Part shown: positions 1 through 34,376 of the stretch, in pieces | Layout of the letters: each line of letters opens with the position of its first letter | How positions within the stretch are numbered: the first letter of the stretch is position 1 | Origin: a virus | DNA: 34,376 bases | Virus record (IMG/VR): IMGVR_UViG_3300005588_000064 | Span: 1 to 34,376 of that record | Direction: 5' to 3' (one strand) | The notes under the pieces: generated by a model | Databases searched by the model: none | Seen by the model: only the letters and a program-made list of their open reading frames with translations | Told to the model about the DNA's origin: nothing | Program-made: the position numbers and the translations under genes

Positions 1-100
1 CAGCCTTTGTTTGTTTTATTATCATCCAAAAAGTCAGGATGGTTTTTAGCAAATTCTTCGCTTACTCCGTTTTCTTCTTTATCGTCTCTTTTTAAGAAGT
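1..100. repeat. Left copy of the 100-bp terminal direct repeat (circular seam)
   Basis: These 100 bases are identical to the last 100 bases of the window. A coding frame starting at 134 (minus) continues correctly through the matching copy at the right end, so the two copies are most simply the same physical sequence seen twice when a circular molecule was linearised. True short terminal repeats on a linear genome are less likely, because P22-like phages package by headful from concatemers. Confidence 0.95.
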
Positions 101-134
101 CAGAATAGCTTTTATAAATCCTTGTATTTTGCAT
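1..134 (-). CDS. Cysteine tripeptide-repeat protein, N-terminal part (continues at 34376 on the circle)
   Basis: This is the start of the gene whose remainder lies at 33598-34376. The ATG at 134-132 stands 2 nt after the csrA stop (TAA at 139-137), so the two genes look translationally coupled. A GAGGG stretch inside the end of csrA could serve as ribosome-binding site, although it lies about 14 nt upstream. The first residues read MQNTRIYKSYSDFLKRDD, a charged, soluble-looking leader with no signal peptide. About 44 codons fall here before the window edge. Joining the ends gives a 270-residue protein. The C-terminal features are described in the entry at the other end. Confidence 0.85.
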   Translation of the reverse strand, partial: MQNTRIYKSYSDFLKRDDKEENGVSEEFAKNHPDFLDDNKTNKG

Positions 135-136
135 GA

Positions 137-316
137 TTAAGACGCCCTCTTACCCAATTGAATCTTGTTGTAAATCTCTTCGCGGTGAACCTGCACCTCT
201 TTAGGTGCCTTAATGCCAATGCGCACCTGATTTCCCTTAACGCCTAACACCGTTACTGTGATGTCATCACCAATCATTAGGGTTTCGCCGAGCTTTCTTG
301 TTAATATGAGTGCCAT
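137..316 (-). CDS. csrA: CsrA/RsmA-family RNA-binding translational regulator
   Basis: A 59-residue protein that aligns end to end with bacterial CsrA (usually about 61 residues). It starts [17 protein letters not shown] and keeps the core [15 protein letters not shown] and the [13 protein letters not shown] segment. The RNA-contacting residues near the N terminus (Leu-Thr-Arg) and the conserved Arg of VHREE are present, so it should be functional. CsrA dimers bind GGA motifs in 5' leaders and block or stabilise mRNAs. The start is set by a strong AAAGGAGAAAG site just upstream. That site contains GGA and could allow autoregulation. The gene sits in the leftward early operon after the recombination genes and directly before the Cys-repeat gene. 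As a phage gene it may retune host carbon-storage, motility or biofilm regulation. Confidence 0.96.
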
Positions 317-945: not shown

Positions 946-2538
946 TCACATGTTTGATACGAGTTTTTCGCTTGCGGCCTCTAAATCCATTTCAAGCAAC
1001 CATTCAACAACTTTTGATTCGTGGACGTTGTAGCGCATAGCAAGCGTGTCGATGATGTGCTGGTCTGATGGACGCTTTTCGTTTTGGCGGCTAGATAGAT
1101 CGGATACAGCAGGTTGCACTGGATCTGTTTGTTCTGAAGGTGGTTCCGAGGTCACAGGCTCTTGCTGAGTAGTGCTTTCAGTCGCTTCCTGTGCGGCGGC
1201 TTCCTGAGCCTTTTCCTGCTCTTCGGCGCGGATTTTCTCACGCTCTTTTTCCAGCCTTTCATTTTCCGCTTTTTCGTGTTCACCAATACGGTAAGCAATC
1301 AGGGTCTGCAGGTCGCCAGTCTCTTTAAGCACCAACTGAACACGATCACCAAACAGGAAGTCATGGCCCGCATCATCTATCAGCTTCAGATTACCCCTGA
1401 TCTTTTCTGCTATTTCGCTGGACTGAATTTTTGCCCTTGCTACTTCGTCATCTGCTGCGCTTTGCAAGGTATCGACTGTGCGCTTGCCTTTCATGGCGCC
1501 ATTGAAATCAGTGATGACTTCGGGCATGTACTGACCGCCAAGGCCGTTATTAAGCTGTTTAACATGCTCATCAACCTTGGCTCTGGCAGTTTGTGCAATC
1601 TCGATTTTGACTTCTTTTTTTCGCTCCTGAACCAGCTTGTTCAGCGCCAGTCGTTTGGTGCGCATTTCTTCTTTGAGGTGGTCAACCGTTTTGAATAATT
1701 CATCAATGCTTGCTGTTTTAGCCAAAGCCTGCTTTTTAACGGATTCAATTTCTTTTTCTGCATTATCGAGAAATTTCACCATACCTTCGGCATCAGCAAA
1801 ATCCTGATCAGTCTTTAGGTCAGTGCTGATAGCCTGAATGCGCGAGGTTACGGCATGCTTATACGTTGCGAGGTTAGTGCCATCAACCTTTCCGGAAATA
1901 TCAATAAACAGCGCTGGGAACTCGGCGACTGGTGCAGCCTGCGGCTCAGGTTCGTAGTTTTTTGGCTCGTACTCCGAAAGATCGCTGTTAAATTGCCTCC
2001 ACCCAGCATCCAAAGATTTCTCTGCTTCTGGTGTCAGGGTTACCCAGATGTGCTCACATTTTTCTTTGGTTCCGTCGGTAACCATGTAGAGACACTTTTC
2101 GGCGCGACTTATCACTAGTTGCTGGACAACCTGCCAAATATCCTCTTCGGGAACATCGCCTGAACGTATGCTTTCCGCCTTTTTTTCATTCCACTGCTTA
2201 CACTCCCAAATGACATCCTCTAACATAGTGATGCCGTCGAAGCTCGCTGCAAGATAGCCGTCGTCATCAGTTGCTGAAACGGGATACAGTTCTTCACCAA
2301 TAATTTCTTCGGCGATTGGTCGCGCCCTTGCTTCAACCTCATGCCCCTTATCCAAGATGTTCGCCTGGAACCAATCACTGAACTCTCGATCAGTTCCGGT
2401 TGCCTTGATATGAAGAAGTTCGTTGCGCTTAACTTTTTCTGAGGCGCCCATCATTGCTGGTGCTTCTGAGGCGTTCAATTTTGTGTGGCGGTGTGCACAC
2501 CATTCTGGTGAGCCTTGGATCAGATCAAGTGTTTTCAT
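946..2538 (-). CDS. YqaJ-type (lambda exonuclease-like) recombination nuclease with long coiled-coil extension
   Basis: Residues 1-200 match the YqaJ/lambda exonuclease fold: GSPEWCAHRHTKLNASEAP near residues 9-27, E68 in GHEVEARARP, D101 in ASFDGI and the E112-C-K114 motif, which together form a PD-(D/E)XK metal site. Such enzymes resect double-stranded ends 5'-3' and hand the strand to a RecT annealase. The protein is 530 residues, about twice a bare YqaJ domain. The middle (about 230-440) is charged and helical, followed by a low-complexity Glu/Gln/Pro linker and a small C-terminal domain. I place the start at 2538, where AGGGGAAA precedes ATG. An in-frame start at 2586 would overlap recT by 62 bp. 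The chosen start overlaps recT by 14 bp, typical of coupled phage genes. Confidence 0.9.
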   Translation of the reverse strand: MKTLDLIQGSPEWCAHRHTKLNASEAPAMMGASEKVKRNELLHIKATGTDREFSDWFQANILDKGHEVEARARPIAEEIIGEELYPVSATDDDGYLAASFDGITMLEDVIWECKQWNEKKAESIRSGDVPEEDIWQVVQQLVISRAEKCLYMVTDGTKEKCEHIWVTLTPEAEKSLDAGWRQFNSDLSEYEPKNYEPEPQAAPVAEFPALFIDISGKVDGTNLATYKHAVTSRIQAISTDLKTDQDFADAEGMVKFLDNAEKEIESVKKQALAKTASIDELFKTVDHLKEEMRTKRLALNKLVQERKKEVKIEIAQTARAKVDEHVKQLNNGLGGQYMPEVITDFNGAMKGKRTVDTLQSAADDEVARAKIQSSEIAEKIRGNLKLIDDAGHDFLFGDRVQLVLKETGDLQTLIAYRIGEHEKAENERLEKEREKIRAEEQEKAQEAAAQEATESTTQQEPVTSEPPSEQTDPVQPAVSDLSSRQNEKRPSDQHIIDTLAMRYNVHESKVVEWLLEMDLEAASEKLVSNM

Positions 2539-3355
2539 TGTTTTCCCCTGTTTCAAGATCACGAATTTGCTGGAGCTGTTCATCACTCAGCACCGCCTTG
2601 GTGCTTAGCATCTTGATAATGTCATCAGCTGATTTCTTGCCGGCCTCAATAAGCAACCGCCAGCTATCTAAATTTTCTTTGAAGCGGTCATCTGGATAGG
2701 GTTCAAGTTCTGCGCGACCGCCACTCTCAGGAGTAATGTCTTTTGGCTCATTACTGATAGGCTGGTCTTGCAGTTCGTCTTCGGTGTAGATACCCAAAAT
2801 AACCTGAGGCATAAAAGCGCGAGCCCAGTTTTTTATTTGCAGATACCCAAGCTGCTGGGGAACGTTTGTTTTCCATAGCGGTGAGTTTTTAACAGTGACG
2901 CTGCTAAATTTGAGCCATTGCCCCCAACTAATTTCAGTCTCATTTTTCAGCTTGAAGCCTACGCGGCACTCTAGGTTGTTGCCTTCACCTTTGTACTCAT
3001 ATTTAGGAAGGCCTGAGACATAGCCTGAAGCTTGAACCAGCGCATTAATCAGTTGAGCTTCGTAGCCCAGTTTACCGCTGACAATGTGGGTTTTCTGTGC
3101 AACCACGTAAGGGTTCATGCGCCATTGAAGGGACTGCAAAACGATGGCGTAACAGTCGCCGACGTTATTCTTTAGGTGATCTGGCACGCTAACTTTTGAA
3201 TTGGCCATGTTGTCTGCTATCACCATTGCTTGATTCATTAATTCCGAATTAAGCATGATGTCGCCGAATTGCTGTGCTTGGTTTGGTGCGGCAGGTGCGC
3301 TGAATTCTTGATCGCTAATAACGGTGATGTCTGTTTGTTCTTGGGTTGCGCTCAT
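2525..3355 (-). CDS. recT: RecT-family single-strand annealing protein
   Basis: The 276-residue product carries the RecT signature: NNVGDCYAIVLQSLQW, NPYVVAQKTHIVSGKLGYEA, and SPLWKTNVPQQLGYLQ followed by IKNWARAFMPQVILGIYTEDEL. RecT proteins coat single-stranded DNA and anneal complementary strands during phage recombination and replication-linked repair. The N-terminal 45 residues and the C-terminal 70 are low in conservation, as is usual in the family. The C-terminal tail is acidic. An AGGAG site lies 8-9 nt before the ATG. The gene is directly upstream of, and overlaps, the YqaJ exonuclease, the normal two-gene recombinase module. Confidence 0.95.
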   Translation of the reverse strand: MSATQEQTDITVISDQEFSAPAAPNQAQQFGDIMLNSELMNQAMVIADNMANSKVSVPDHLKNNVGDCYAIVLQSLQWRMNPYVVAQKTHIVSGKLGYEAQLINALVQASGYVSGLPKYEYKGEGNNLECRVGFKLKNETEISWGQWLKFSSVTVKNSPLWKTNVPQQLGYLQIKNWARAFMPQVILGIYTEDELQDQPISNEPKDITPESGGRAELEPYPDDRFKENLDSWRLLIEAGKKSADDIIKMLSTKAVLSDEQLQQIRDLETGENNENT

Positions 3356-4428: not shown

Positions 4429-4665
4429 ATGAATGAAGAGGTTATGGCTGGGATCTTCATTTTAGTGTGCGCTGGGATAGCTTTTTTTCTGTTTACGCGC
4501 TGGTGGTTTTGGGCTTTAGCTTTTGGTTTGGGGGGGTTGGCTAGCTTTTTCTCTGTGTGCGCAAGTGTTATTCATTTTCAGATACTTGCAGCAGTTGGGT
4601 TTTCTGTTTTGACATTTCTTTGTTATTTGGGGTTGGGGTTTAGTCTTACAAGATCGCCTTACTAA
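4429..4665 (+). CDS. Small multi-spanning membrane protein beside the repressor; possible superinfection-exclusion protein
   Basis: A 78-residue, highly hydrophobic protein with two or three membrane segments (about 6-23, 26-46 and 50-70) and almost no charged residues between them. Start at 4429 is chosen because TAGAGGAG lies 6 nt upstream; a longer reading from 4387 lacks a ribosome-binding site. It is transcribed against pL, between pL and the repressor. In lambda and P22 the sieB exclusion gene lies in the same area with the same opposite orientation. Exclusion function is inferred from position and topology only. It may alternatively be read through from an unidentified lysogenic promoter. 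Confidence 0.65.
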   Translation: MNEEVMAGIFILVCAGIAFFLFTRWWFWALAFGLGGLASFFSVCASVIHFQILAAVGFSVLTFLCYLGLGFSLTRSPY

Positions 4666-27402: not shown

Positions 27403-28668
27403 ATGACAAGCCGGTTTAAAAACCCGTTCCCGCAATATTTTGATGACAATGGTCAGATATTAGTGGCAGGACGCCTTTATTTCTACGAGCCTGGCACAAG
27501 CAATATTCAGCGAGTCTATCAGGATCAAGCATTATCTAGCCAGCACCCAGATTATGTGACACTTACAGGTGCCGGCAGAGTTCCAGATATTTTCTTCTCT
27601 GGCTATAGACGTGTTGTGCTAACTGACTCTAGCGGGAATGAAGTTGATGAGGCTGATCCGGTTGATCTTTTCGGTAAGGTTCAGTTCAACATATGGGGGG
27701 CAACCATAGACTATGGTGTGGGCGATATTGCTCAGGACCCCAGCGATAGCGACTTCTATATATCGCTCACTAATAATAACAACAGTAACGATCCCTCAGG
27801 ATCACCGACCCACTGGTCTAAGATAATTTTTATTGGTATTTACAATAGTAACGAAACCTATGCTGCAGATAACGTTGTGGCTGATGGCGGCATTCTCTAC
27901 TTCTCACTAGTTAATAACAATATTGGTAACACTCCTGCATCATCGCCTTCGCAATGGTCTAGCTTTGCCTCTTCTGCAGCCAATACCACATACGATAACG
28001 CAGCCTCTGGCTTGGCCGCCATAACAGTTCAAGCCGCTATCGATGAGCTTGAGTCAGAGAAGGCAGTCAAAGCAAATCCGAGTTTTACTGGTGAAATTAG
28101 CCTTGTGGGTACATCCGTTTCTGAGACAGAGTTAAGCATTCTTGAGGGTGCGACCATTTCAACCGCAGAACTGAATACACTGGACGGTATCACAGCAACT
28201 ACCGCAGAACTGAATACACTGGACGGTATCACAGCAACTACCGCAGAACTGAATACACTGGACGGTATCACAGCAACTACCGCAGAACTGAACCACTCTG
28301 ATGGCCTAACCAGTAATATACAGAGCCAGATAAACGCAAAGCTAGCCTCAAGTTCTGATTCGATTTCTGCTTACTGGGGCAGTATTCGGTTTGTTTCTGG
28401 TACGACCGCCTCGGCTGATCAGGAGTCAGGGTTATCCATTACGTGGTCGGTGCCAGCCACTGGTGTTTATCGGGGAGTTTTTGCCTCAGCACGCTCAGCT
28501 TCAACTTACTGTCTTCAAGGGACTGCTCAGTCAGCCTCTGGGGCTGCCACAATATTGACCATTTATGGTAATGGTAAAACCGTCAACGGTTTTGATCTTT
28601 ATAATTTAAACGACAGCGGCGCAGCTAAGGTTGCTTCGCACAACTATGTAACTATCTGGGAGAATTAA
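27403..28668 (+). CDS. Tail fibre/tailspike with head-binding-like N terminus and 13-residue repeats
   Basis: Residues 1-95 (NGQILVAGRLYFYEPGTSNI, LTGAGRVPDIFFSGYRRVVL, TDSSGNEVDEADPVDLFG) follow the pattern of tailspike head-binding domains, which attach to the tail hub. The middle contains chitin-binding-like WS modules (SPTHWSKIIF and SPSQWSSF) and then a stalk of TAELNTLDGITAT repeats. The last 90 residues are a beta-rich receptor-binding tip (SGLSITWSVPATGVYRGVFA). No enzymatic motif is visible. Its position after the gp16-like gene and the immI-like gene equals that of P22 gene 9. Confidence 0.85.
   Translation: MTSRFKNPFPQYFDDNGQILVAGRLYFYEPGTSNIQRVYQDQALSSQHPDYVTLTGAGRVPDIFFSGYRRVVLTDSSGNEVDEADPVDLFGKVQFNIWGATIDYGVGDIAQDPSDSDFYISLTNNNNSNDPSGSPTHWSKIIFIGIYNSNETYAADNVVADGGILYFSLVNNNIGNTPASSPSQWSSFASSAANTTYDNAASGLAAITVQAAIDELESEKAVKANPSFTGEISLVGTSVSETELSILEGATISTAELNTLDGITATTAELNTLDGITATTAELNTLDGITATTAELNHSDGLTSNIQSQINAKLASSSDSISAYWGSIRFVSGTTASADQESGLSITWSVPATGVYRGVFASARSASTYCLQGTAQSASGAATILTIYGNGKTVNGFDLYNLNDSGAAKVASHNYVTIWEN
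28162..28292 (+). repeat. 39-bp tandem repeat in the tail-fibre stalk
   Basis: Three perfect 39-bp units (28162-28200, 28201-28239, 28240-28278) plus 14 bases of a fourth. Each codes TAELNTLDGITAT. Absolute identity between the units, including silent positions, means recent slippage or duplication. Fibre length could vary between isolates in 13-residue steps. Confidence 0.95.
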
Positions 28669-31450: not shown

Positions 31451-31864
31451 TTAGGCGTACTCACGCACTATTTTGTAAATTTCTCGCGCCTCTTCAACGC
31501 TTCGTATTTTCGCGGTGTGGTATTTCCAACCAACACGAGCACTAATCTTTGCGTAAATATCTTTTCGACTCATCTTTCCACTTTCCCAAATCGGGTCTAA
31601 CAGCTTATGTATATGCTGCCTTGCCTTCTTTAGCTCTGGCGTTGGTATACAGCCGAGTGGTTGTGTTCTGTTCTTAGTCTTGTGGTGGCAGCCAACAAAG
31701 TTACCGCAACTATCGCACCTCCAAAACGGCAAGCTATACAAATCTTTCCTGTGCGGGTAAATCTCACTACCATCAGTTAAACGCGCCTGTACTTTATTGC
31801 CATCACAACCGCAGCAGCGTAATTCGCGCATAACAAAAGGCTCAACCGGATTCATTACGCTCAC
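31451..31864 (-). CDS. DUF3268-type zinc-finger protein (137 aa)
   Basis: The N-terminal half has CxxC pairs (LRCCGCDGNK and WRCDSCGNFVGCHH) around DGSEIYPHRKDLY, then PLGCIPTPELKKARQHIHKL, which is the layout of the DUF3268 zinc-finger domain. The second half is helical (MSRKDIYAKISARVGWKYHT). The biochemical role of this family is unknown; it is often found in phages. The start is GTG at 31864, because GGAGAGAAC lies 8 nt upstream; ATG at 31855 and a TTG at 31894 are also in frame. Confidence 0.75.
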   Translation of the reverse strand: MSVMNPVEPFVMRELRCCGCDGNKVQARLTDGSEIYPHRKDLYSLPFWRCDSCGNFVGCHHKTKNRTQPLGCIPTPELKKARQHIHKLLDPIWESGKMSRKDIYAKISARVGWKYHTAKIRSVEEAREIYKIVREYA

Positions 31865-31919
31865 TTCGTTCTCTCCATTCACGCGGTTAACCAAGGGTTA
31901 AATCGCAATTTTTTTCAGG

Positions 31920-33597: not shown

Positions 33598-34376
33598 TTA
33601 AGTTGATTCAGCCAAATCCTTCATGTCTTCCATTGCAGCTTCATTGCTGTCGAAAAATCTACAAGGGTTGATTTCATAGCCGCTTTCTCGGTAAATCAGT
33701 TGTGCTGCAAGACATGTGCTACTAAAGAATTTTTCAAGTGCATATCCTTCATTACCTGCGAGATGAACCACCCATCCGGCACGGCAATGAGTCGTGTCGC
33801 ACGTATGCCAATCCCCCATATTTAGTGCGTTTTCAGCACTTGCGGCCTCAAAAACTTTTTTATGGATGCCTTCTATTGAGGGCGTCAAAGGCTTCTTACT
33901 TTCCTCGCTGCCCTTTTTTTCATGGCAAGAGCTGCAATAGCTGCAATCGCTGCAAGAGCTGCAATCGCTGCAAGAGCGGCAATCGCTGCAAGAGCTGCAA
34001 GAGCTGCAATCGCTGCAAGAGCTGCAATAGCTGCAATAGCTGCAAGAGCGGCAATAGCTGCAAGAGCGGCAATCGCTGCAAGAGCGGCAATAGCTGCAAT
34101 CGCTGCAAGAGCGGCAATAGCTGCAAGAGCGGCAAGAGCGGCAATCGCTGCAAGAGCTGCAAGAGCTGCAATCGCTGCAATCGCTGCAAGAGCTGCAATA
34201 GCTGCAATAGCTGCAAGAGCTGCAATAGCTGCAATCGCTGCAAGAGCGGCAATAGCTGCAATCGCTGCAATTCCAACAGCCTTTGTTTGTTTTATTATCA
34301 TCCAAAAAGTCAGGATGGTTTTTAGCAAATTCTTCGCTTACTCCGTTTTCTTCTTTATCGTCTCTTTTTAAGAAGT
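33598..34376 (-). CDS. Cysteine tripeptide-repeat protein with C-terminal HxC-HCRAGW domain (main part)
   Basis: The full protein (270 residues) starts at 134 and enters here across the seam. After a charged leader, about residues 45-162 consist of 39 uninterrupted C-x-x units, mostly CSD, CSY, CSS or CRS, with 40 cysteines exactly three residues apart. A linker (HEKKGSEESKKPLTP) joins a 100-residue domain with NMGDWHTCDTTHCRAGWVVH and FFDSNEAAMEDM. From memory, that domain also occurs in phage proteins behind pentapeptide repeats; I know no function for it. A three-residue period places every Cys on one face of a polyproline- or 3-10-type helix, which suits metal or iron-sulfur binding, or disulfide stacking. 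It has no signal peptide, so it is cytoplasmic. It is coupled to csrA. Confidence 0.85.
   Translation of the reverse strand, partial: FLKRDDKEENGVSEEFAKNHPDFLDDNKTNKGCWNCSDCSYCRSCSDCSYCSSCSYCSYCSSCSDCSDCSSCSSCSDCRSCRSCSYCRSCSDCSYCRSCSDCRSCSYCRSCSYCSYCSSCSDCSSCSSCSDCRSCSDCSSCSDCSYCSSCHEKKGSEESKKPLTPSIEGIHKKVFEAASAENALNMGDWHTCDTTHCRAGWVVHLAGNEGYALEKFFSSTCLAAQLIYRESGYEINPCRFFDSNEAAMEDMKDLAEST
33925..34278. repeat. 9-bp tandem repeat tract coding the C-x-x array
   Basis: About 39 units of the type GCNGCAANN (forward), with GCTGCAATC, GCTGCAATA, GCTGCAAGA and GCGGCAATC the main versions. Variation is limited to three bases of the unit; the TGC Cys codon is constant. The units are not identical, so the array is old enough to have diverged. 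At 354 bp, longer than the 100-bp assembly overlap at its edge, its exact copy number in the assembly is uncertain. Confidence 0.95.
34277..34376. repeat. Right copy of the 100-bp terminal direct repeat (circular seam)
   Basis: Exact copy of positions 1-100. It begins at the very edge of the 9-bp tandem repeat tract (33925-34278), which suggests the assembler opened the circle at that repeat. Removing one copy gives a circle of 34,276 bp. Confidence 0.95.

Follow-up and report, generated by a model that had tools for sequence, protein, structure and literature searches.

A P22-like phage genome carries, in its early region, a gene for a protein in which 40 cysteines are spaced exactly three residues apart. 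The gene is neither an artefact nor unique, being one of a family that is widespread in phages and that we found only as uncharacterised entries. In this family selection at the level of the protein maintains the cysteine register, the length of the array changes quickly, and, in front of one common C-terminal domain, the array looks interchangeable with pentapeptide repeats. The reading that we tentatively prefer is that of an early phage protein built as a cysteine-cored beta-solenoid rod, which would hold a binding surface and an end domain against a host target.

An array gene in the early region of a P22-like phage

The stretch of DNA analysed here (the window; 34,376 nucleotides) is a circular record of 34,276 bp with a terminal overlap of 100 bp, positions 1-100 being identical to 34277-34376; the identical ends indicate a circle cut within the array gene, which therefore crosses the join. 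The first-pass annotation had placed the gene at 33598-34376. It lies on the minus strand with its stop codon at 33598-33600, but the window ends inside the gene, and the open reading frame runs on over the circular junction into 1-134 (minus strand), as far as an ATG at 134-132. Joined in this way, the protein has 270 aa and begins with MQNTRIYKSYSDF, and a probable ribosome-binding site (AGAGGG, 145-150, minus strand) can be read in the sequence 10 bases 5' of the ATG. By inspection, the N-terminus of this 270-aa reading has no recognisable signal sequence.

The window also encodes P22-type portal and coat proteins, a Terminase_3 large subunit and an integrase. Upstream of the array gene, all on the minus strand, are a neighbour with no assigned function (385-912), whose family is found in Bordetella plasmid pA too, next to the pentapeptide form, a RecE/YqaJ-like recombination exonuclease (946-2586) and a RecT-like annealing protein (2525-3355). 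With RecE- and RecT-like genes directly upstream, the array gene belongs to the early or recombination region, and its position suggests that it is expressed early. A zinc-finger-containing protein with a DUF3268 domain (31451-31894) lies in the region of the array gene as well. Elsewhere in the window, a 421-aa ORF (27403-28668), possibly a gene of tail-fibre type, contains a perfect 39-bp tandem repeat of 3.4 copies (28162-28292; TAELNTLDGITAT repeats).

The array and its flanking modules

The 39 unbroken C-x-x steps first reported for this early-region gene were confirmed: the array (33925-34278, minus strand) has 40 cysteines at exact spacing in an uninterrupted frame (33598-34374 within the window), reading ...GCWNC(SDC SYC RSC ...)SSCHEKK. 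After a single W-N unit come, in total, 11 S-D, ten S-Y, nine S-S and eight R-S units. The longest C-x-x run reached by chance in 20,000 composition-preserving shuffles of the protein was 8. At the DNA level the units are of 9 bp, (A/C)GC-(GAT/TAT/TCT)-TGC, and form a tandem repeat of 38.6 copies (33925-34271), which leaves the other frames open as well; the coding frame is nevertheless fixed, since the modules flanking the array on both sides are conserved in frame. The N-terminal module shares 74% identity with a protein of a Vibrio phage, and the C-terminal domain is up to about 70% identical to that of other relatives.

The N-terminal cap module is encoded for the most part (residues 12-44) at 34279-34376 on the minus strand, with residues 1-11 at 134-102, and its pattern, I-F-K-S-Y-x-E-F..R-x-D-K..N-G-V..N-K-G-C-W-N-C, is kept in 22 aligned relatives. 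At least two kinds of N-terminal module stand before C-x-x arrays: a second has the pattern W-I-x-D-x-N-G-N-R-C-S-V-E-Y-F-G-S-x-E-A-A...C-x-N-C, and a third type occurs at two loci, L052 and L078. The C-terminal domain (33601-33891, minus strand) is about 97 aa long, mostly helical, and matches phrog_31265 (E 2.6e-21). Its signature motif, WHTCDTTHCRAGW (33772-33810, minus strand), has H, C, H, C and GW invariant in the alignment, and the domain as a whole follows the family pattern WHxCxTTHCRAGW...LAG..G..L and has columns that are invariant in 21 relatives. A profile search of the PDB with this domain gave nothing convincing, the best match being ribosome-binding factor A (E 0.15).

A widespread family in phages

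Searches with the C-terminal domain recovered at least 438 encoded relatives in the viral contigs of one collection, and searches with the N-terminal module about 30; about 100 relatives have C-x-x arrays, which range in length from 8 to 62 units. The window protein matches phrog_15341 (E 6.8e-17), and the cysteine register is unbroken in all 24 aligned members of that group. The first-pass annotation knew of no described system with such an array, but relatives are already on file in phrog_15341 and phrog_31265, both listed as of unknown function and with neither a fold nor an array rule named, and public records call such proteins 'insect antifreeze protein' or 'cysteine rich'. The former label, with InterPro IPR016133, is borne by gp68 of the cultured Vibrio phage 1.238.A, which shares the N-terminal module and the C-x-x array, lacks the C-terminal domain, varies in its outward residues and is little more than cap and array; the latter is found in the record of Campylobacter phage F379. 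Pfam, NCBIfam and PADLOC gave no match for the window protein, Pfam none even at E 10. We found no description of C-x-x arrays, triplet-cysteine solenoids or cysteine-rich Campylobacter phage proteins in the open literature, nor does the genome paper of CP220 make any mention of cysteine.

The cultured Flavobacterium phage FL-1 has the same N-terminal module and C-x-x array as the window protein. In its record (L014 4521-5337, KY421186.2) the deposited annotation translates the array in an Ala/Pro/Val frame, while the conserved cysteine frame begins at 4521; the deposited sequence drops out of this frame inside the end-domain motif. The Campylobacter phages CP21, CC_R7, WX1, IBB_35, F379 and others also carry arrays, some in several copies, with a different cap, the same array rule, varied outward residues and no C-terminal domain, and one such protein matches phrog_15341 with an E-value of 6.9e-74. 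Here the array gene lies between the portal and DNA ligase genes. Phages with two or more array genes, which are often close together, include those of L021/L022 (158-kb contig IMGVR_UViG_3300035703_000016), L034, L035, L050, L012 and L153. In bacterial genomes, a scan with the N-terminal module found a single Bacteroidota locus, and the end domain is present in 3 of 222 genomes from that locus's family.

Selection on the register and rapid change in length

Across 110 arrays with 2,924 units, cysteine is coded by both TGC (2539) and TGT (385), serine at the second place by TCN and AGY alike, and only four units are broken. Campylobacter arrays, which are varied in sequence with no single repeated 9-mer, have cysteine at 444 of 460 register positions. 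Taken together, the mixed cysteine and serine codons, the rarity of broken units and the persistence of the register in Campylobacter phages show that the spacing is a property of the protein and not just of DNA expansion; the cysteine register is thus under selection at the protein level. At the outward third place, codons across the family mostly combine A or G as second base with C or T as third, an unusually narrow set (Asp, Gly, Arg, Tyr, Asn and His).

The number of units, on the other hand, changes quickly. Two loci (L028 and L029) with no differences in their flanks, compared over 2 kb on the upstream and 1 kb on the downstream side, have 25 and 28 cysteines respectively, and in a second pair (L026 and L037), with flanks 99.65% and about 98% alike, the counts are 30 and 50.

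Exchange with pentapeptide rods

The first-pass annotation described the C-terminal domain as otherwise found behind pentapeptide repeats. It does stand behind them in L011, L012 and Bordetella plasmid pA, but C-x-x arrays are far commoner in this place: among the distinct relatives listed, the region upstream of the end domain is a C-x-x array in 86 and a pentapeptide array in 4, with 3 of another kind and 3 too short. Pfam confirms the pentapeptide repeats in L011 and in a Bordetella locus (L015). The neighbourhoods are also shared. Of 101 relatives, 29 have recombination genes no more than a few kb away; L011, a pentapeptide form, has both ERF and YqaJ nearby, and one or both are found near C-x-x loci such as L044, L057, L063, L093, L108 and L111, while L015 has as its neighbour the gene family found upstream of the array in the window. 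Given the same end domain and these common neighbourhoods, C-x-x and pentapeptide repeats look interchangeable. Such an exchange suggests that the array is probably an element that sets length and presents a surface, rather than a thiol reagent. At the same time, some relatives (Vibrio gp68 and the Campylobacter proteins) have no end domain, so the array itself must hold part of the function.

Pentapeptide-repeat proteins form beta-solenoids that may look like DNA, and they typically dimerise through C-terminal helices (PMC10886550). The sister phage genes place members of this class (PF00805, which includes the gyrase-binding Qnr/MfpA group) before the domain that follows the window array, but the array itself differs from them in having a three-residue cysteine unit in place of the five-residue A(D/N)LXX, no PF00805 match and a weak net charge. 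The suggestion made at first of a DNA-mimic-like rod finds no support in the charge, which is -4 over the 40 units of the window (in the family the median is -0.13 per unit and values run from -0.65 to +0.73); unlike Ocr, Qnr and MfpA, the array does not have a strongly acidic, DNA-like surface.

The fold of the array

What kind of structure might keep such a register? Non-cysteine residues at register positions are mostly of core type: the 35 cases, a count that excludes 8 wrong-strand L001 matches and comes from few lineages, so that the cases are not independent, comprise S 15, L 8, I 3, T 2, Y 2 and one each of G, N, F, M and R. No D, E or H is among them, although outside the register these three account for about 20% of positions. 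Such substitutions speak for a solenoid core with the register facing inward rather than for metal ligands, since a ligand position would be expected to accept His or Asp and the register has neither.

The same observations bear on the suggestion of a metal store or redox sponge, in which the cysteine ladder would bind Zn, Cu(I) or Fe-S in series, or buffer redox or metal stress of the host, with the Cys/His domain at the C-terminus as part of the same chemistry. Forty cysteines in 270 aa, C-x-x-C pairs with the spacing of classical ligands, and an end domain with invariant His and Cys are what such a device might look like. It is weakened, however, by register substitutions that run to Ser, Leu and Ile and never to Asp, Glu or His, and by a pentapeptide rod with no cysteine ladder that takes the array's place; nor is there any match to a metallothionein or other family in Pfam, NCBIfam or PADLOC. 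We consider this reading unlikely, although it is a main rival to the solenoid.

The only relative of solved structure is the Tenebrio antifreeze protein (1ezg), with E 0.006 for the family profile and 0.096 for the single sequence, a match that can arise from cysteine-rich composition alone. In the Tenebrio solenoid, inward residues (Cys/Ser/Cys/Ala) occur every three residues in coils of 12. The inward residue proposed for the window array likewise falls at every third position, but in 1ezg, a secreted, disulfide-bonded insect protein, cysteine occupies only every second inward place, and the array has neither the Thr ice-binding ladder nor the TCTxSxxCxxAx coils of insect antifreeze proteins. 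Cysteine at each third residue is also known from Drosophila male-germline proteins with Cys-Gly-Pro repeats; these are eukaryotic and Gly-Pro rich, with no known domain in common, so the similarity is one of resemblance only. In C-S-x arrays, bulky third-place residues recur every four units, that is, 12 residues (z 3.0-4.6), and this persists after removal of pairs with duplicated context. The non-repetitive Campylobacter arrays do not have this periodicity (lag 4 is negative), and coils of 12 residues are therefore not established.

AlphaFold2, run on the full window protein and the Vibrio form, was confident for the N-terminal cap (pLDDT about 82-91) and most of the C-terminal domain (87-95), but built no confident array (one model gave 28-49, a second about 40), and Foldseek found no significant match in the PDB or among viral models. 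An unnamed 81-aa viral protein (BFVD entry A7RAH6; 58% identity, structural score not significant) may also be a C-x-x protein. A solenoid is thus our preferred reading of the fold, as suggested by the register and its substitutions.

Low confidence confined to the array could also point to an unfolded, reduced and flexible cysteine-rich tether between two end domains, expanding mostly by replication slippage, and both the wide range of lengths and the highly regular 9-bp repeat of the window would fit. A mere linker would however be hard to reconcile with cysteines that are strongly conserved despite synonymous changes and kept in register in the divergent Campylobacter array, with forms such as Vibrio gp68, or with folded repeat rods that take the array's place, and we regard it as improbable. 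Improbable to a greater degree is a thin beta-solenoid with a continuous thiol core (up to about 60 cysteines) that would be reversibly reduced, disulfide-bonded or metal-filled, acting against a host target as a length-tunable rod responsive to redox state or metal. An adhesin or structural rod of the virion or cell surface, cross-linked by disulfides like cysteine-rich structural proteins, would suit the rod-like repeat and the location of the Campylobacter gene next to the portal gene, but seems very unlikely given the lack of a recognisable signal sequence, neighbours in the window that are early-region rather than tail genes, and the improbability of disulfides in the cytoplasm. Finally, the openness of every frame might suggest a non-coding 9-bp repeat inflated by assembly and open by chance, a reading with next to no probability and already refuted by the identical complete gene in a separately assembled IMG/VR record (L002, 24,553 bp; its reads are not necessarily independent), the conserved in-frame domains on both sides, the many relatives and the arrays of cultured phages; assembly error and stop codons in relatives, which the first-pass annotation had named as what would overturn its account, were looked for and neither occurred.

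A putative solenoid rod directed at the host

In the cysteine-cored rod that we prefer, the small N-terminal cap would start a narrow beta-solenoid in which the cysteine at each third residue is turned inward to pack the core while the other two places, occupied by Ser and Asp/Tyr/Ser/Arg, face outward, and the helical Cys/His domain would close the C-terminal end. The rod may fill the role that the pentapeptide-repeat solenoid has in sister phages, providing length and a repeating polar surface beside the C-terminal domain, and the 9-bp unit would allow coils to be gained or lost quickly. The early position of the gene, its occurrence mainly in phages and its fast change in length point to binding of a host target, which the rod might occupy during the early recombination phase, in host takeover or counter-defence.

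A widespread class of phage protein has thus been present only as unknown families, sometimes misnamed or read in the wrong frame. Two unrelated-looking repeats are used interchangeably before one domain, and phages identical in other respects differ in the length of the rod. A thiol core, if borne out, would make this an unusual fold for a cytoplasmic protein. The common end domain offers a handle for locating the host target, and the cultured Vibrio, Flavobacterium and Campylobacter phages allow direct testing.
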